Assembly: GCA_005518205.2 (NCBI GenBank)
Contig: RFFC02000011.1
Span: 1 to 64,000 of the forward strand
Reading direction: 5' to 3'
DNA: 64,000 bases
Source of the DNA: Hormoscilla sp. GUM202
GTDB taxonomy: Bacteria; Cyanobacteriota; Cyanobacteriia; Cyanobacteriales; Desertifilaceae
Every line of letters starts with the position of its first letter. The first letter of the stretch is position 1. The position numbers were made by a program, and so were the translations under genes. A model generated the notes under the pieces. It saw only the letters and a list, made by a program, of their open reading frames with translations, searched no databases and had not been told where the DNA came from. Shown in pieces: positions 40,923 to 51,330 of this stretch.

Positions 40923-41370
40923 AGTTTTTACCTCAATGGTTTATATGTATACAATAAAAAGCGATCCTTGGCCTTCGTAACTGCAATGTGCTACTTTATG
41001 AAGTGGCTACTTACCCCAAACAGGCAACTTGTTGCTTAGGTTCGGGAACCCTCCTGTGATGATGCAAAAACCAGCGGTTATGTTTCCCCACGGAACTCAA
41101 CCTACAGTTGGCTAATAGTTGCATGCTTCACAAAGCCGCACCCCTCGTTCCCACGGCGAAGCCTGGGACGGGTGGCGGCGGCGAGGTATATTTGCCAAAG
41201 ACCAGATGCATCCGGTGGGCGGTGCCCACTACTACTACAGTTGAGAAGCGCCTAATACAGAAATTTTTGAGAGTTTTGGGCCACTTCTACCAATTTACCC
41301 TTTCGACCCAAGGCAAGATCGGCCAATTCGACAAGGGTTGGGGTCTGCTTGGGGTCGAGAGGCCATGGCG
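40923..41370. other. intergenic region, repeat-rich
   Basis: 450 bp without a gene. Contains CTCGTTCCCACGGCGAAGCC (41144-41163, CTCGTTCCC family) and GGTGGGCGGTGCCCACT (about 41214-41230). Reading frames here have no protein-like composition. Confidence 0.5.
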
Positions 41371-42060
41371 ATCGCCCAGCCTGCCCCGGGGCACGGCGGT
41401 ATTCGCATTCATCTTAACCGAAATATCTTTGATGCCGTGCCCCTACAGGAAATGGCGATCGCCTGACCGCATCACATTCGCGATCGCCGAAAGGTAGGGG
41501 CACGGCATCCATAACATCAGTATCTCAACCCAAATATATCTATTGCCGTGCCCCGGCGGTGCATTCGAGATCGCATCCCATCGTGACACCTAGTTCATTG
41601 CCGATCGCCCAAAGGTCGAGGCATACAGGATATTTGGCGATCGCATCCCATCTGGGTACGACATTGGGCGGATCGCCCAGCCTGCCCCGGGGCACGGCGG
41701 TATTCGCATTCATCTTAACCGAAATATCTTTGATGCCGTGCCCCTACAGGAAATGGCGATCGCCTGACCGCATCACATTCGCGATCGCCGAAAGGTAGGG
41801 GCACGGCATCCATAACATCAGTATCTCAACCCAAATATATCTATTGCCGTGCCCCGGCGGTGCATTCGAGATCGCATCCCATCGTGACACCTAGTTCATT
41901 GCCGATCGCCCAAAGGTCGAGGCATACAGGATATTTGGCGATCGCATCTGGGTACGACATTGGGCGATCGCCCAGCCTGCCCCGGGGCACGGCGGTATTC
42001 ACATTATCATCTTAACCGAAATATCTTTGATGCCGTGCCCCTACATTATCTTTGCGATCG
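41371..42060. repeat. 301-bp tandem repeat, 2.3 copies
   Basis: Copy starts at ATCGCCCAGCCTGCCCCGGG at 41371, 41672 and 41967 (spacing 301 and 295 bp); the third copy is cut after about 90 bp. Each unit includes GATGCCGTGCCCCTAC and, inverted, GTAGGGGCACGGCATC, plus several HIP1 sites. Copies 1 and 2 are almost identical. No coding function. Confidence 0.9.
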
Positions 42061-46422: not shown

Positions 46423-47553
46423 TTATCCGAATAAAGCTAATTGCTGAGGCCCGGAGGAAAAGGCAGTACCCGCATCGAGACAAACCAAAGCTTTATGGAT
46501 ATTCTCGCCTAGTCGTCGAGCAAACTCCACTGGCACGGCGTTGCCAATTTGTATCATAATCGATCGTTTGTTATTGCCCTTAAACTCCCAATCGTCGGGA
46601 AACGTTTGCAGTCGTGCATATTCTCGATGGGTGAAGGCTCTCAATCGTGATGCTGATATACGCCAGAGCTTTGCGTTGGCCTTTGGATTTCGGATATACT
46701 GACCGTTGATACGATCTTTTACTTGACGACTCGCTCGTATATTGCCTTGGGCCCAACCCCACACTGTTGCCGTGTCGATCGCGGGGAAGGGCCGATCGTA
46801 ACTGCGAATCGGATGACCGTCGGATGCGGTGCGGGAAAAGCGTACTGGCAAGACGCAATCAGTTGGATCGAAAGGTTCGCCAGTTTCGATGTGAACTGCG
46901 CTCTTGAATCCCCAGACTGGATCGTGATTTGGTACAGTTGGTACGGAACTGAGGCTGTGGACCAGGTCGAACAGAAAGGGGCGAATGGAAGTCTGGCACT
47001 TGTCGGGTTGGGGTAAATAATAGCCAAGTGGCGGTGGTTCGCAAAAGGCGACGAAGACAAAGCGGCGGCGGGTTTGCGGGACTCCATAGTGACACATCTT
47101 AAAAATGTCGTGAAAGACGGTGTAGCCACAGCGTTCTAAATCCTGCGTAATTTGCATGGCTACAGGGTTACCTGTTTCTGGCGATTTCATTGTCCGTAGG
47201 TTGAGGACGTTTTCGATCGCGATGATGCGGGGTCTTCCTTGCCGCGCAATCCGTAAAACCTGTTTATAAAGCTGATTTCTCGGATCGTCATCCTGACGGT
47301 TACCGCCCAGAGAAAAGCCCTGACAGGGAACTCCTGCTAGTAAGACATCCGGTGAAATCACCGAATCTAATTCAAATTCTCGGAGGTCTGCTTGGAGAAC
47401 TGGCCAGTGGGGACGATTGTGCTTGAGCGTGGCGATCGCCCACGGATCCAGATCGATCGCCTGTCGGTGCTGAAAACCAGCTAACTCGAACCCCAGGTCC
47501 AGTCCTCCCGCACCCGCACACAATCCAATGACAGTGAAGTTCGATTGACTCAT
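46423..47553 (-). CDS. dcm: DNA cytosine-5 methyltransferase
   Basis: 376 residues. C5-methylase motifs in order: I IGLCAAGLD-like segment (GLCAGAGGLDLGFELAGFQH), IV VLLAGVPCQGFSLGGNRQDD (catalytic Cys in PCQ), VI IIAIENVLNLRT, VIII VPQTRRRFVFVAF, X IQIGNAVPVEFARRLGENI. The target-recognition region is residues ~190-300. The specificity cannot be read from sequence. Its start overlaps the preceding frame (GATGA). No restriction enzyme was identified; a fragment of its 5' end is duplicated at 48880-48942. Confidence 0.9.
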   Translation of the reverse strand: MSQSNFTVIGLCAGAGGLDLGFELAGFQHRQAIDLDPWAIATLKHNRPHWPVLQADLREFELDSVISPDVLLAGVPCQGFSLGGNRQDDDPRNQLYKQVLRIARQGRPRIIAIENVLNLRTMKSPETGNPVAMQITQDLERCGYTVFHDIFKMCHYGVPQTRRRFVFVAFCEPPPLGYYLPQPDKCQTSIRPFLFDLVHSLSSVPTVPNHDPVWGFKSAVHIETGEPFDPTDCVLPVRFSRTASDGHPIRSYDRPFPAIDTATVWGWAQGNIRASRQVKDRINGQYIRNPKANAKLWRISASRLRAFTHREYARLQTFPDDWEFKGNNKRSIMIQIGNAVPVEFARRLGENIHKALVCLDAGTAFSSGPQQLALFG

Positions 47554-47705
47554 CGATCTTCCTCCTGACGCAGCGTTACAGCGGGTTGGTGAGAGTGACG
47601 TGATGAGCGATATGCAATGAAATGGTGCTGTTGTCCTGCCGATGGGTTTTCGGTATAGGTAGCCTGTAGCTTATTCGTCGTCAGGTCGAAATAGTATCCA
47701 GTCAT
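47550..47705 (-). CDS. 51-residue frame overlapping dcm start, unknown
   Basis: ATG 47705 to a TGA that overlaps the dcm ATG (ATGA). MTGYYFDLTTNKLQATYTEN is not recognised; composition is plausible but not convincing. It may be the 3' remnant of a gene once coupled to dcm. Confidence 0.3.
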   Translation of the reverse strand: MTGYYFDLTTNKLQATYTENPSAGQQHHFIAYRSSRHSHQPAVTLRQEEDR

Positions 47706-47949
47706 CAGGCGATCGCATATCCTCCTTCCGGTCGCCCTTTGCCTTGATATGACCGGGCCAGGAAATGACCATGGGATTGCGGGTGCCGCCAAAGTAAGAG
47801 GCGATCTTTTTAGTCCAGCGGAAGGGACTATCCAGGGCCCATGCCCAGCCCACCGCATAGTGGGGAGAGGTTGTGGGACCACCCCAAGTGTCTTTGCACT
47901 CTAGGTTTTGGTCCATTGTCAGGGGAATGCCGACTCCTGGTAACTTCAC
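47706..47949 (-). pseudogene. arylsulfatase internal fragment
   Basis: About 80 codons: CKDTWGGPTTSPHYAVGWAW, ALDSPFRWTKKIASYFGGTR, NPMVISWPGHIKAKGDRKED. This matches the middle of bacterial arylsulfatases (GWAWA.D.PF.WTK..AS.FGGTR). Neither the sulfatase active-site Cys/Ser motif nor the C terminus is present. It is cut at the right by CRISPR-repeat-like sequence and at the left by the unknown frame, so it is a stray piece. Confidence 0.7.
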
Positions 47950-47956
47950 CCCAAGA

Positions 47957-48027
47957 GCAATTCCAGTCCCCAGCGAGTGGGGACTGGCACCACGCCTGAT
48001 TAATTCGCGTCCCCAGCGAGTGGGGAC
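47957..48027 (-). CRISPR. two degenerate CRISPR-repeat remnants
   Basis: GTCCCCAGCGAGTGGGGAC appears at 47965-47983 and 48009-48027, each preceded by eroded repeat 5' halves (AATTCCA; ATTAATTCGC). Only about 15 bp separate them. Same repeat family as the array at 50485-50735. Confidence 0.75.
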
Positions 48028-48086
48028 ACAGTCCGGCCGTGATGCGCGGCAAAGGCGTTCAATACGCCGATGTCCACAAAATAGAA

Positions 48087-48740
48087 CTATGATAATTGCG
48101 AATCCGCAGAAGCAAAAGACAGCCCGAGGCGTTGTCCCACAAGCTTCTTTATCATCACCTGATAACCGCAGCTAATGACGTCATATTCCCCGTCATGAAC
48201 CGTCATAAAAGCGTCAATTCCACCTTTCGGGTGGCTGATGGTGCCCTCCCGCGCCTGGTTCCATTCGTAGTCGTCAAAAACCAGAAGAGCCCCGTTTTTT
48301 GCCATTCTCCACGCCATTTCTGCGTCCATAAGCACATCATCAGCGCGATGGGAGCCGTCAATATAAACAAAGTCAAAGCCGAGGGCGGACTGCCCTTCCA
48401 TCTCCTTCATCAACTGCACAAGCGCTGGCATCGAAAATTCCCGCAGAACGCGCACCCGGTCGCCAAGACCGGTGGACGCTATATTGCCTTGAAAGGTTTT
48501 GAAGCGCGCGCGCCCCTCCTTGGTTGCGAGCAAATCAAAATGGTCCACGCAGACCAACTGATTGCCCGGGCTGTCGCATCCGCAAAGATTTTGGAGAATC
48601 CAGACCGCAGAACCTCCTTCCCATGAACCGATTTCAAGAGCCCTGCACGTATGAACGCCCGAAAAAAAGGGGGTAACAACACGCTCCCAGACGTGTTGTT
48701 GTCCTTTAAACCACTCTTGCCCCGGCGTCAATTTGACCAT
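48087..48740 (-). CDS. class I SAM-dependent methyltransferase (CmcI/Methyltransf_24-like)
   Basis: 217 residues from ATG 48740. Motif I CRALEIGSWEGGSAVWILQN, ..CVDHFDLL, GFDFVYIDGSHRADDVLMDA, NGALLVFDDYEWNQAREGTI, FMTVHDGEYDVISCGYQVMI. The fold is clear; the substrate is not known (family members methylate small molecules or sugars). Flanked on both sides by CRISPR-repeat remnants and lacking HIP1 sites inside, which suggests it was brought in from another source. Confidence 0.8.
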   Translation of the reverse strand: MVKLTPGQEWFKGQQHVWERVVTPFFSGVHTCRALEIGSWEGGSAVWILQNLCGCDSPGNQLVCVDHFDLLATKEGRARFKTFQGNIASTGLGDRVRVLREFSMPALVQLMKEMEGQSALGFDFVYIDGSHRADDVLMDAEMAWRMAKNGALLVFDDYEWNQAREGTISHPKGGIDAFMTVHDGEYDVISCGYQVMIKKLVGQRLGLSFASADSQLS

Positions 48741-48795
48741 AGCCACACAATCGCTTTCTATTATACTCTAATTTTGACTGCTCAGCTTTCGCCTT

Positions 48796-48885
48796 GTTTC
48801 CATTAATTCTCGTCCCGAGTGGGGACATCAACGTCGGATAACCGTACCTCAATGGTAGAGTGTTTCCATTAATTCTCGTCCCCAG
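48796..48885 (-). CRISPR. two CRISPR-repeat remnants with one 35-bp spacer
   Basis: GTTTCCATTAATTCTCGTCC starts at 48796 (31-bp copy lacking 4 bp of the loop) and 48862 (24 bp, then fused to dcm 5' sequence). The 35 bp between (48827-48861) have normal spacer length. Both carry TTCTCG where the main array has TTCCCG. Confidence 0.8.
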
Positions 48886-48942
48886 GTCTAGTCCTCCGGC
48901 ACCCGCACACAATCCAACGACAGTGAAACTCGATTGACTCAT
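48880..48942 (-). pseudogene. duplicated dcm 5' end fused to a CRISPR repeat
   Basis: From ATG 48942: MSQSSFTVVGLCAGAGGLDL then G, matching the first 21 dcm codons, and directly GTRINGN, which is the translated CRISPR repeat. The junction lies in CCCCAG, shared by dcm and the repeat. Too short to function. Confidence 0.8.
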
Positions 48943-48978
48943 CGATCGAACTTTTATAGTGCTGTTGTCTGCGATCGC

Positions 48979-50046
48979 CTAATCTTGAAGAAACTGTACC
49001 AACTGTTCCAACTTGGTCCACGCAGCACCACTCGCCAGGATATCCTTGGCCACCTTAACACCCTCTGCATGAGCCTGAAGTGGAACAACTTCACCTACCT
49101 GAAGGGCCAAAGATGCATTCAATGCCACAGCATCCTGCTGGGCCGCTGTACCCTTGCCTTGCAGCACATCGGACATAATCTCGACATTGTCTTTAAGTTC
49201 GCCCCCTCGCAAGGCATCGACCCTTGCTGCTGTCAAACCCAGTTCCTGGGGATTGATTGCGGTTATCTGTACCCGACCGTCTGACAATATGGCCAAATCT
49301 GTTAAATCTCCTAGTCCCGCCTCATCTAGTTTTTCCCGTCCGTGGAGGACGATCGCCTTCTGGGTTCCCAGTTGCTGCAATGCTTGGGCGATCGTTTCTA
49401 TCATCCCCCCATCGAATACCCCGATCGCCTGACCTGTCGGGCCCATGGGATTCACTAGCGGGCCCAAGAGATTAAATACAGTTCGCACCTTCAGAGTTTT
49501 CCGCAGACTCACTACGGCCTTCATCGCTGGATGCCAACCGGGGGCAAATAGAAACGTGATTCCTACTTCATCCAGGGCGGAGACAACCTTCTGAGTGGGT
49601 GCATTCAGCGGAACCCCCAAACCTTCCAACACATCCGCCGAACCCACCTTACTAGAGGCCGAACGATTGCCATGTTTGGCCACTTTCACCCCTGCTGCGG
49701 CGGCCACAAAGGCAACAGCAGTAGAGATATTAAAGGTGGAAGCACCATCTCCACCCGTCCCGCAAGTATCTATTACAGGGGTCGAATGTACGGTTTTGGG
49801 GTATGATTTCGATTGAGATTGCAATACCGAAGCCATCCCGGCCAGTTCTGTTGCTTCTACTCCTTTAGCTTGGATGGCCGCTAAGATCGCACCTGAGAGT
49901 ACTGGCGGAATTGTCTCACTTAACCATCCCTCCATTAAGGACTCTGCTTGGGCCCGTGAGAGCGATCGCTTATCTAGGAGTTGTTGTAGTAACTTGGACC
50001 AGTTGGGGATTTGCTCGTCAATTGCCATCGCTCGATCCTGAGTCAT
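48979..50046 (-). CDS. trpD: anthranilate phosphoribosyltransferase
   Basis: 355 residues from ATG 50046 (an internal ATG seven codons in is an alternative). PRPP-binding [75 protein letters not shown], and [16 protein letters not shown] are all in place. Transfers phosphoribose to anthranilate in tryptophan synthesis, cytoplasmic. Standing alone, with CRISPR-related debris at both sides. Confidence 0.95.
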
Positions 50047-50484: not shown

Positions 50485-50735
50485 ATTTCCATTAATTCCC
50501 GTCTCCAGCGAGTGGGGACACTAATTCCCAAACCACCCCCGGGGTGATCTACTGGCGAGTTTCCATTAATTCCCGTCCCCAGCGAGTGGGGACGTAATAA
50601 ACGTTACAACACCTTCCGACTCATCCACGTTTCCATTAATTCCCGTCCCCAGCGAGTGGGGACCGAACTGCCTGGCTGCATTGCTTTTTTACTCAAAGGC
50701 GTTTCCATTAATTCCCGTCCCCAGCGAGTGGGGAC
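50485..50735 (-). CRISPR. CRISPR array, 4 repeats of 35 bp, 3 spacers
   Basis: Repeats at 50485-50519 (two mismatches), 50559-50593, 50629-50663 and 50701-50735, the last three identical. Spacers are 39, 35 and 37 bp. On the minus strand the repeat begins GTCCCCACTCGCTGGGGAC (a perfect stem) and ends AATTAATGGAAAC, so transcription is likely toward lower coordinates with the leader at the right; the degenerate left repeat is then leader-distal. The stem type resembles repeats of cyanobacterial type III or I-D loci. No cas gene is in the window. Confidence 0.95.
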
Positions 50736-51153: not shown

Positions 51154-51330
51154 ATTGCATGCTTACACTAAGTTATTGCATGCTTACACTAAGTTATTGC
51201 ATGCTTACACTAAGTTATTGTATGTTTACACTAAGCATTGCATGCTTACACTAAGTTATTGCATGCTTACACTAAGCTATTGTATGTTTACACTAAGCAT
51301 TGTATTCTTACACTAAGCTATTGTAAACCT
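51154..51330. repeat. 20-21-bp tandem repeat, 8 units
   Basis: Unit ATTGCATGCTTACACTAAGT plus T, with variants ATTGTATGTTTACACTAAGC and an eroded last unit. No spacers, so not CRISPR. The region sits 110 bp past the porin stop. Confidence 0.9.

Follow-up and report, generated by a model that had tools for sequence, protein, structure and literature searches.

Orphan DNA methyltransferases that have arisen through the loss of a restriction partner are known, for example from a survey of the Halobacteria (PMC6471742), and CRISPR arrays can lose spacer-repeat units by recombination between repeats or by replication slippage (PMC8047081). Our analysis concerns a locus within a 64,000-nucleotide stretch of the genome of Hormoscilla sp. 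GUM202 (the window), at which, in the history that we consider likely, an operon of trpD, a restriction gene (R) and a methyltransferase gene (M, here dcm) was hit by a CRISPR-bearing insertion accompanied by a duplication, with the loss of R and the survival of M as a solitary gene. As in the described orphan enzymes, the methyltransferase is intact and apparently selected, and its endonuclease has disappeared from this lineage while close relatives retain it; unlike them, the window retains a physical scar in the form of the tail of the nuclease gene, the segment that replaced the remainder, and a duplicated methyltransferase start. The predicted fold of R, its motif and the overlapping methyltransferase gene in sister genomes liken the ancestral locus to type II restriction-modification (R-M) systems with PD-(D/E)xK endonucleases such as SwaI, EcoRV, HincII and NlaIV, from which R differs in having no sequence match to solved structures, Pfam, NCBIfam or PADLOC at the thresholds used. 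CRISPR-associated inversions were reportedly described in Thermotogales by DeBoy et al. in 2006. The window resembles such rearrangements in having repeats at or near its breakpoints; it differs in that the junction with dcm involves a repeat on one side only, with 6 bp of identity, and is hence not a product of repeat-repeat recombination.

Hormoscilla is a filamentous cyanobacterial symbiont of sponges. The genome that contains the window (G000; 6.87 Mb in 70 contigs) was compared with those of two sisters, Hormoscilla sp. GM7CHS1pb (G001) and Hormoscilla SP12CHS1 (G002). The GUM202 symbiont assembly is described as having 70 scaffolds with a mean of 98 kb and 96.2% identity to GUM007 (PMC6520454); the window genome probably derives from metagenome assembly, and the junctions specific to the window are read from the assembled sequence. 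The window is 95-97% identical to both sisters at the nucleotide level through dcm and its upstream sequence to about 47715-47717; similarity resumes from 48976 in trpD, and all of the sequence between about 47717 and 48976 differs. In both sisters trpD is followed by an intact R of 259-262 aa, which lies downstream of trpD and overlaps dcm by 4 bp. This order, trpD-R-dcm, replaces the uninterrupted dcm-CRISPR-trpD arrangement that the original prediction had envisaged as ancestral. Both trpD and the large receptor/cyclase gene adjoining dcm look frameshifted in G001 (L011:5993-7067 and L011:9313-10008), possibly through long-read assembly errors.

In the window R is reduced to its 3' end, with nucleotide identity to the sisters extending to about 47715-47717. 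A tblastn search of G000 with the sister R matched only residues 204-259, showing the rest of the gene to be absent, and the same search found R complete in G001 and G002; the window genome therefore lacks the intact cognate nuclease gene that a functional R-M system needs. This loss, the chief consequence of the rearrangement, did not figure in the original prediction. Four lines of evidence make R a predicted restriction endonuclease: its motif, its adjacency to M, the presence of methyltransferases at related loci, and its fold. The motif Y-P-D-F...E-x-K (P67 D68, E79 and K81) is invariant in all 25 aligned homologues. R overlaps M not only in G001 and G002 but also in two further cyanobacteria with adjoining dcm homologues (G024 and G028), and a C5 or N4/N6 DNA methyltransferase lies nearby at 79 of 80 R-homologue loci fetched from many phyla; most of these are N4/N6 enzymes of ~715-790 aa, with a minority of C5 enzymes like dcm. 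Fold comparison was needed because searches of the R sequence against Pfam, NCBIfam, PADLOC and PDB sequences gave no significant match at the thresholds used. The structures nearest to the AlphaFold model of R (pLDDT 79) are those of SwaI, EcoRV, HincII, NlaIV and SfiI; VIA-align placed SwaI best (Z 9.3 over 151 residues, rmsd 3.8), followed by EcoRV and HincII, and Foldseek placed SfiI at the top (E 0.12). Taken alone the fold match is suggestive, the Z range of 6-9 among the structural neighbours being weak by itself; the list is almost wholly one of restriction enzymes, in agreement with the motif and the gene context. The sister loci thus combine methyltransferase-nuclease adjacency with a PD-(D/E)xK motif and fold, as in type II R-M systems.

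The R family is widespread, with 185 confirmed matches among GTDB genomes, but no model of Pfam, NCBIfam or PADLOC recognizes it at the thresholds used (L077-L156; L012:4653-5432). Its nucleases, at 53-71% identity, are paired with either C5 or unrelated N4/N6 methyltransferases, and in a quick tree of the family the C5-paired members form no clade of their own; these pairings suggest that the nucleases have switched methyltransferase partners.

The remaining methyltransferase appears to be in good order. PF00145 spans residues 5-352 of dcm, which is free of frameshifts and has 98% amino acid identity to the sister proteins. Its dN/dS (NG86) is ~0.09-0.10 against each sister, with a sister-sister value of 0.10, and on these ratios we take dcm to be under continued purifying selection. 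Because the adjoining sister gene R reads as a restriction endonuclease, dcm is assigned, from sequence, as the modification enzyme of a former type II R-M pair and now an orphan C5 methyltransferase; its catalytic domain is intact and no second copy of R is present in G000.

Table 1. Features of the rearranged locus and its flanks, in window coordinates.
Feature	Position	Strand	Description and basis
C5-cytosine DNA methyltransferase (M, 'dcm')	46423..47553	-	intact; PF00145, E 2e-58
R 3' remnant, residues 204-259	47553..47729	-	tblastn with sister R, 91% aa
R tail/sulfatase junction	47710..47722	.	...CAGGCGATCG/CATATCC...; aligned against R of the sisters and DNA of a related sulfatase
Sulfatase gene fragment	47722..47931	-	~residues 303-376 of a 730-aa sulfatase
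25-28-bp filler	47931..47958	.	match to HEAT-repeat-like gene, G000:C19:99201-99228, 96% over 28 bp, E 5e-5
CRISPR repeat, truncated	47959..47984	+	repeat scan
CRISPR repeat, truncated, ATTCGCG variant	47999..48027	+	begins 516-bp block common to G001:C3
SAM-dependent methyltransferase, 219 aa, intact	48087..48746	-	PF13578 (Methyltransf_24), 105/105 positions, E 9e-21
CRISPR repeat with internal 4-nt deletion, ATTCTCG variant	48796..48827	+	
CRISPR spacer, single, 33-35 nt	48828..48860	+	
CRISPR repeat, 5' part	48861..48885	+	joined via CCCCAG to dcm copy
Second dcm start: codons 1-21 and 5-bp leader	48880..48947	-	97% identical to the dcm starts of the sisters, 93% to the window's dcm
R 3'-end remnant in second copy (probable)	48956..48975	-	counterpart of 47622-47643
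trpD	48979..50046	-	intact; PF00591/PF02885 and sister match; far edge of replaced segment
trpD-side CRISPR array	50485..50735	+	4 repeats, ATTCCCG variant

The segment between the R tail and trpD is a mosaic (Table 1). The two eroded repeats that the original prediction had recognized on either side of a full-length SAM methyltransferase reading frame were located at 47959-48027 and 48796-48885 (repeat consensus GTTTCCATTAATTCCCGTCCCCAGCGAGTGGGGAC). Those of the first pair are truncated and 43 nt apart, while the repeat-spacer-repeat unit at 48796-48885 keeps the period of genuine arrays and qualifies as a CRISPR array. The last repeat does run through CCCCAG into a copy of the dcm start, 1.3 kb from the functional dcm, as had been noticed; this 68-bp copy (48880-48947, against 47491-47558) is 93% identical to the original, a match far above chance (E 3e-22), and so bears out the claim that the start of dcm has been duplicated. 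The sulfatase fragment, which had been described as cut beside a repeat, is real (80% amino acid identity to its match in a related cyanobacterium, 81% in nucleotides), but a short filler separates it from the repeat, and at its opposite end it is joined to the R tail. Neither the window stretch nor L036 contained a known structured RNA, and by inspection no transposase was recognized among the open reading frames of 47700-48980.

The flanks of this mosaic indicate how it may have been inserted. The second copy of the dcm start keeps the ancestral state at three sites where the window's own dcm differs from both sisters. Beyond it, the segment 48956-48975 is probably a scrap of the 3' end of R; a global alignment of both dcm-start copies did not place this scrap, which was placed by local alignment alone, with a score that none of 500 shuffles reached and that rests on ~20 nt. 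If the scrap is accepted, both flanks consist of the M start and the R end, and amount to a direct duplication whose length, at least 153 bp, exceeds that of a target-site duplication. A direct duplication around an insert, with a short templated filler, is a pattern typically left by template switching or by microhomology-mediated joining. The repeat and dcm have 6 bp in common at their junction (CCCCAG), and the chance of 6 bp or more in the absence of microhomology is ~0.0013.

These junctions bear directly on the proposal that CRISPR repeats underwent homologous recombination with one another, moving the methyltransferase gene and duplicating the dcm start. Part of that proposal holds, in that genes have moved and repeats lie at breakpoints both here and at related sister loci. 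There are repeats on each side of the methyltransferase gene; at G001:C3 a repeat adjoins a group II intron, and at G002:C306 the broken sensor-kinase-like gene contains a repeat-spacer end; and exchange between repeats could account for the mixture of ATTCGCG and ATTCTCG variants and for the short 43-nt spacing at 47959-48027. However, dcm carries no CRISPR repeat of its own and has only 6 bp in common with its partner, so that repeat-repeat exchange was not the maker of the hybrid junction; moreover, the junction between the sulfatase and R is without any repeat, the nearby array is of a different repeat variant, and the cassette appears to have been assembled beforehand. Repeat recombination is accordingly an improbable account of the locus, and we favor an insertion of the CRISPR-bearing segment through short microhomology.

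The prior assembly of the cassette is suggested by a counterpart at a different locus of a sister genome. A 516-bp block at G001:C3:146008-146523 is 99% identical (99.2%) to the window and comprises one repeat, complete there, and methyltransferase codons 79-219; these residues are matched at 99% in G001:C3:146010-146432. The remainder of the methyltransferase copy is cut off by a fragment of a group II intron reverse transcriptase. Past the repeat lie a sulfatase C-terminus and a gene for a formylglycine-generating (sulfatase-activating) enzyme (FGE), with an apparent second group II intron fragment between the repeat and the sulfatase, and the order and orientation of repeat and sulfatase match those of the window. 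Being reduced to its C-terminus, the sulfatase at G001:C3 is at most a possible equivalent of the window fragment. Because the repeat-methyltransferase unit already stands beside a sulfatase at this separate locus, most of the cassette is judged to have been pre-assembled before its arrival. G000 also contains dozens of matches, complete or partial, to a group II intron related to the one at G001:C3 (e.g. C33:43431-44120).

A viral source of the methyltransferase was considered and rejected, IMG/VR holding no close relative and yielding a single distant phage match at 33%; a search of the phylum gave relatives of at most 38% identity. The codon usage of the gene, which had been proposed as a check, proved only mildly atypical and is not diagnostic.

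The age of the event is signaled in conflicting ways. Three private changes of the window's own dcm fall within the duplicated 68 bp and suggest an old duplication, whereas the methyltransferase block, which differs by less than 1% from G001, suggests a recent common source. Both signals would be reconciled if the segment had come in already rearranged, and with the second dcm start, by homologous recombination from another Hormoscilla strain. Such an import would also fit the agreement of the second dcm copy with the sisters at the three sites where the window's own dcm departs from them, and the 99.2% identity of the methyltransferase block to G001 against 96% in its surroundings. The flanks, however, show no tract of raised similarity, the first 150 bp on the trpD side being ~5% different from both sisters, and the arrangement is found in none of the compared strains; we therefore hold import to be a serious but rather unlikely alternative to insertion at the locus itself.

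It could also be asked whether the mosaic is an artefact of assembly at repeated sequence, since the genome is probably metagenome-assembled, in 70 contigs, and repeats are known to cause misjoins. Against this, the repeats are of 35 bp, much shorter than reads; G001 provides an independent occurrence of the junction of repeat and methyltransferase; the R tail runs without a break into dcm, colinearly with the sisters; and the duplicated copy has private changes of its own, unlike a misassembled copy. An artefact is thus very improbable.

The repeats of the cassette are distinct from those of the array upstream of trpD. The debris repeats are of the ATTCTCG and ATTCGCG variants that also occur at G001:C3 and G002:C306, and the trpD-side array is of the ATTCCCG variant; an origin of the debris in that array is ruled out by these variants. 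With up to 3 mismatches allowed, the cassette spacer matched nothing else in the three Hormoscilla genomes, and self-targeting by this spacer was accordingly set aside. The trpD-side array has two spacers in common with G002 (L012:7191-7743), one of them with small differences, and is therefore probably older than the split from that genome. A tandem 20-21-bp repeat (ATTGCATGCTTACACTAAGTT) at 51154-51319 adjoins the array, and similar short repeats are present there in both sisters. Elsewhere in the window, 41370-41647 and 41671-41948 are identical 278-bp direct repeats, 301 bp apart.

A sensor-kinase-like gene is broken near one point by different means in the three genomes (L036:6882-7078, L157:14140-14432, L037:3778-4112 and L163:9369-9583): by a 100-bp insert in G000, by a CRISPR-bearing break in G002 and, further on, by a group II intron in G001. 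In G002, 18-19 nt of the CRISPR spacer that adjoins the break are found again, inverted, on its other side. A wider reading is that isolated repeat-spacer units of Hormoscilla travel with neighboring genes, land repeatedly at the breakpoints of rearrangements and serve as mobile stretches of homology through which accessory genes are shuffled from locus to locus and from strain to strain, here disabling a second defense system; we offer this as an improbable speculation.

Our comparison, coupled with the junction analysis, suggests a model for the history of the locus, in which a CRISPR-bearing insertion with duplication disabled an R-M operon. The ancestral locus would have been a type II operon of trpD, R and M. 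A cassette mostly assembled at a locus resembling G001:C3, where a repeat-methyltransferase unit stands beside a sulfatase and its activating enzyme, would have contributed a segment of ~1.16 kb (sulfatase fragment, eroded repeats, SAM methyltransferase and CRISPR mini-array) that entered between the M start and R, accompanied by direct duplication of the region of the M start and R end. We propose that the ends were joined by microhomology-mediated illegitimate recombination or template switching, through CCCCAG at one end and probably a GATCG/CG stretch at the other, and that the remaining R was then deleted from the right-hand copy as far as the trpD stop codon. With its cognate nuclease gone, the locus would no longer restrict DNA, and M would persist as a solitary C5 methyltransferase. 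Neither an intermediate genome nor the exact donor is present among the compared genomes.

The locus is a well-preserved case of ordinary genome decay, from an R-M system to an orphan methyltransferase; its ingredients are each known and it does not represent a new system. It carries the warning that CRISPR-like repeats beside a gene do not mean that the gene was placed there by the CRISPR machinery or by recombination between repeats. Furthermore, it would provide a step-resolved example of R-M decay, in which the nuclease was erased by an insertion with flanking duplication and the methyltransferase was kept by selection.
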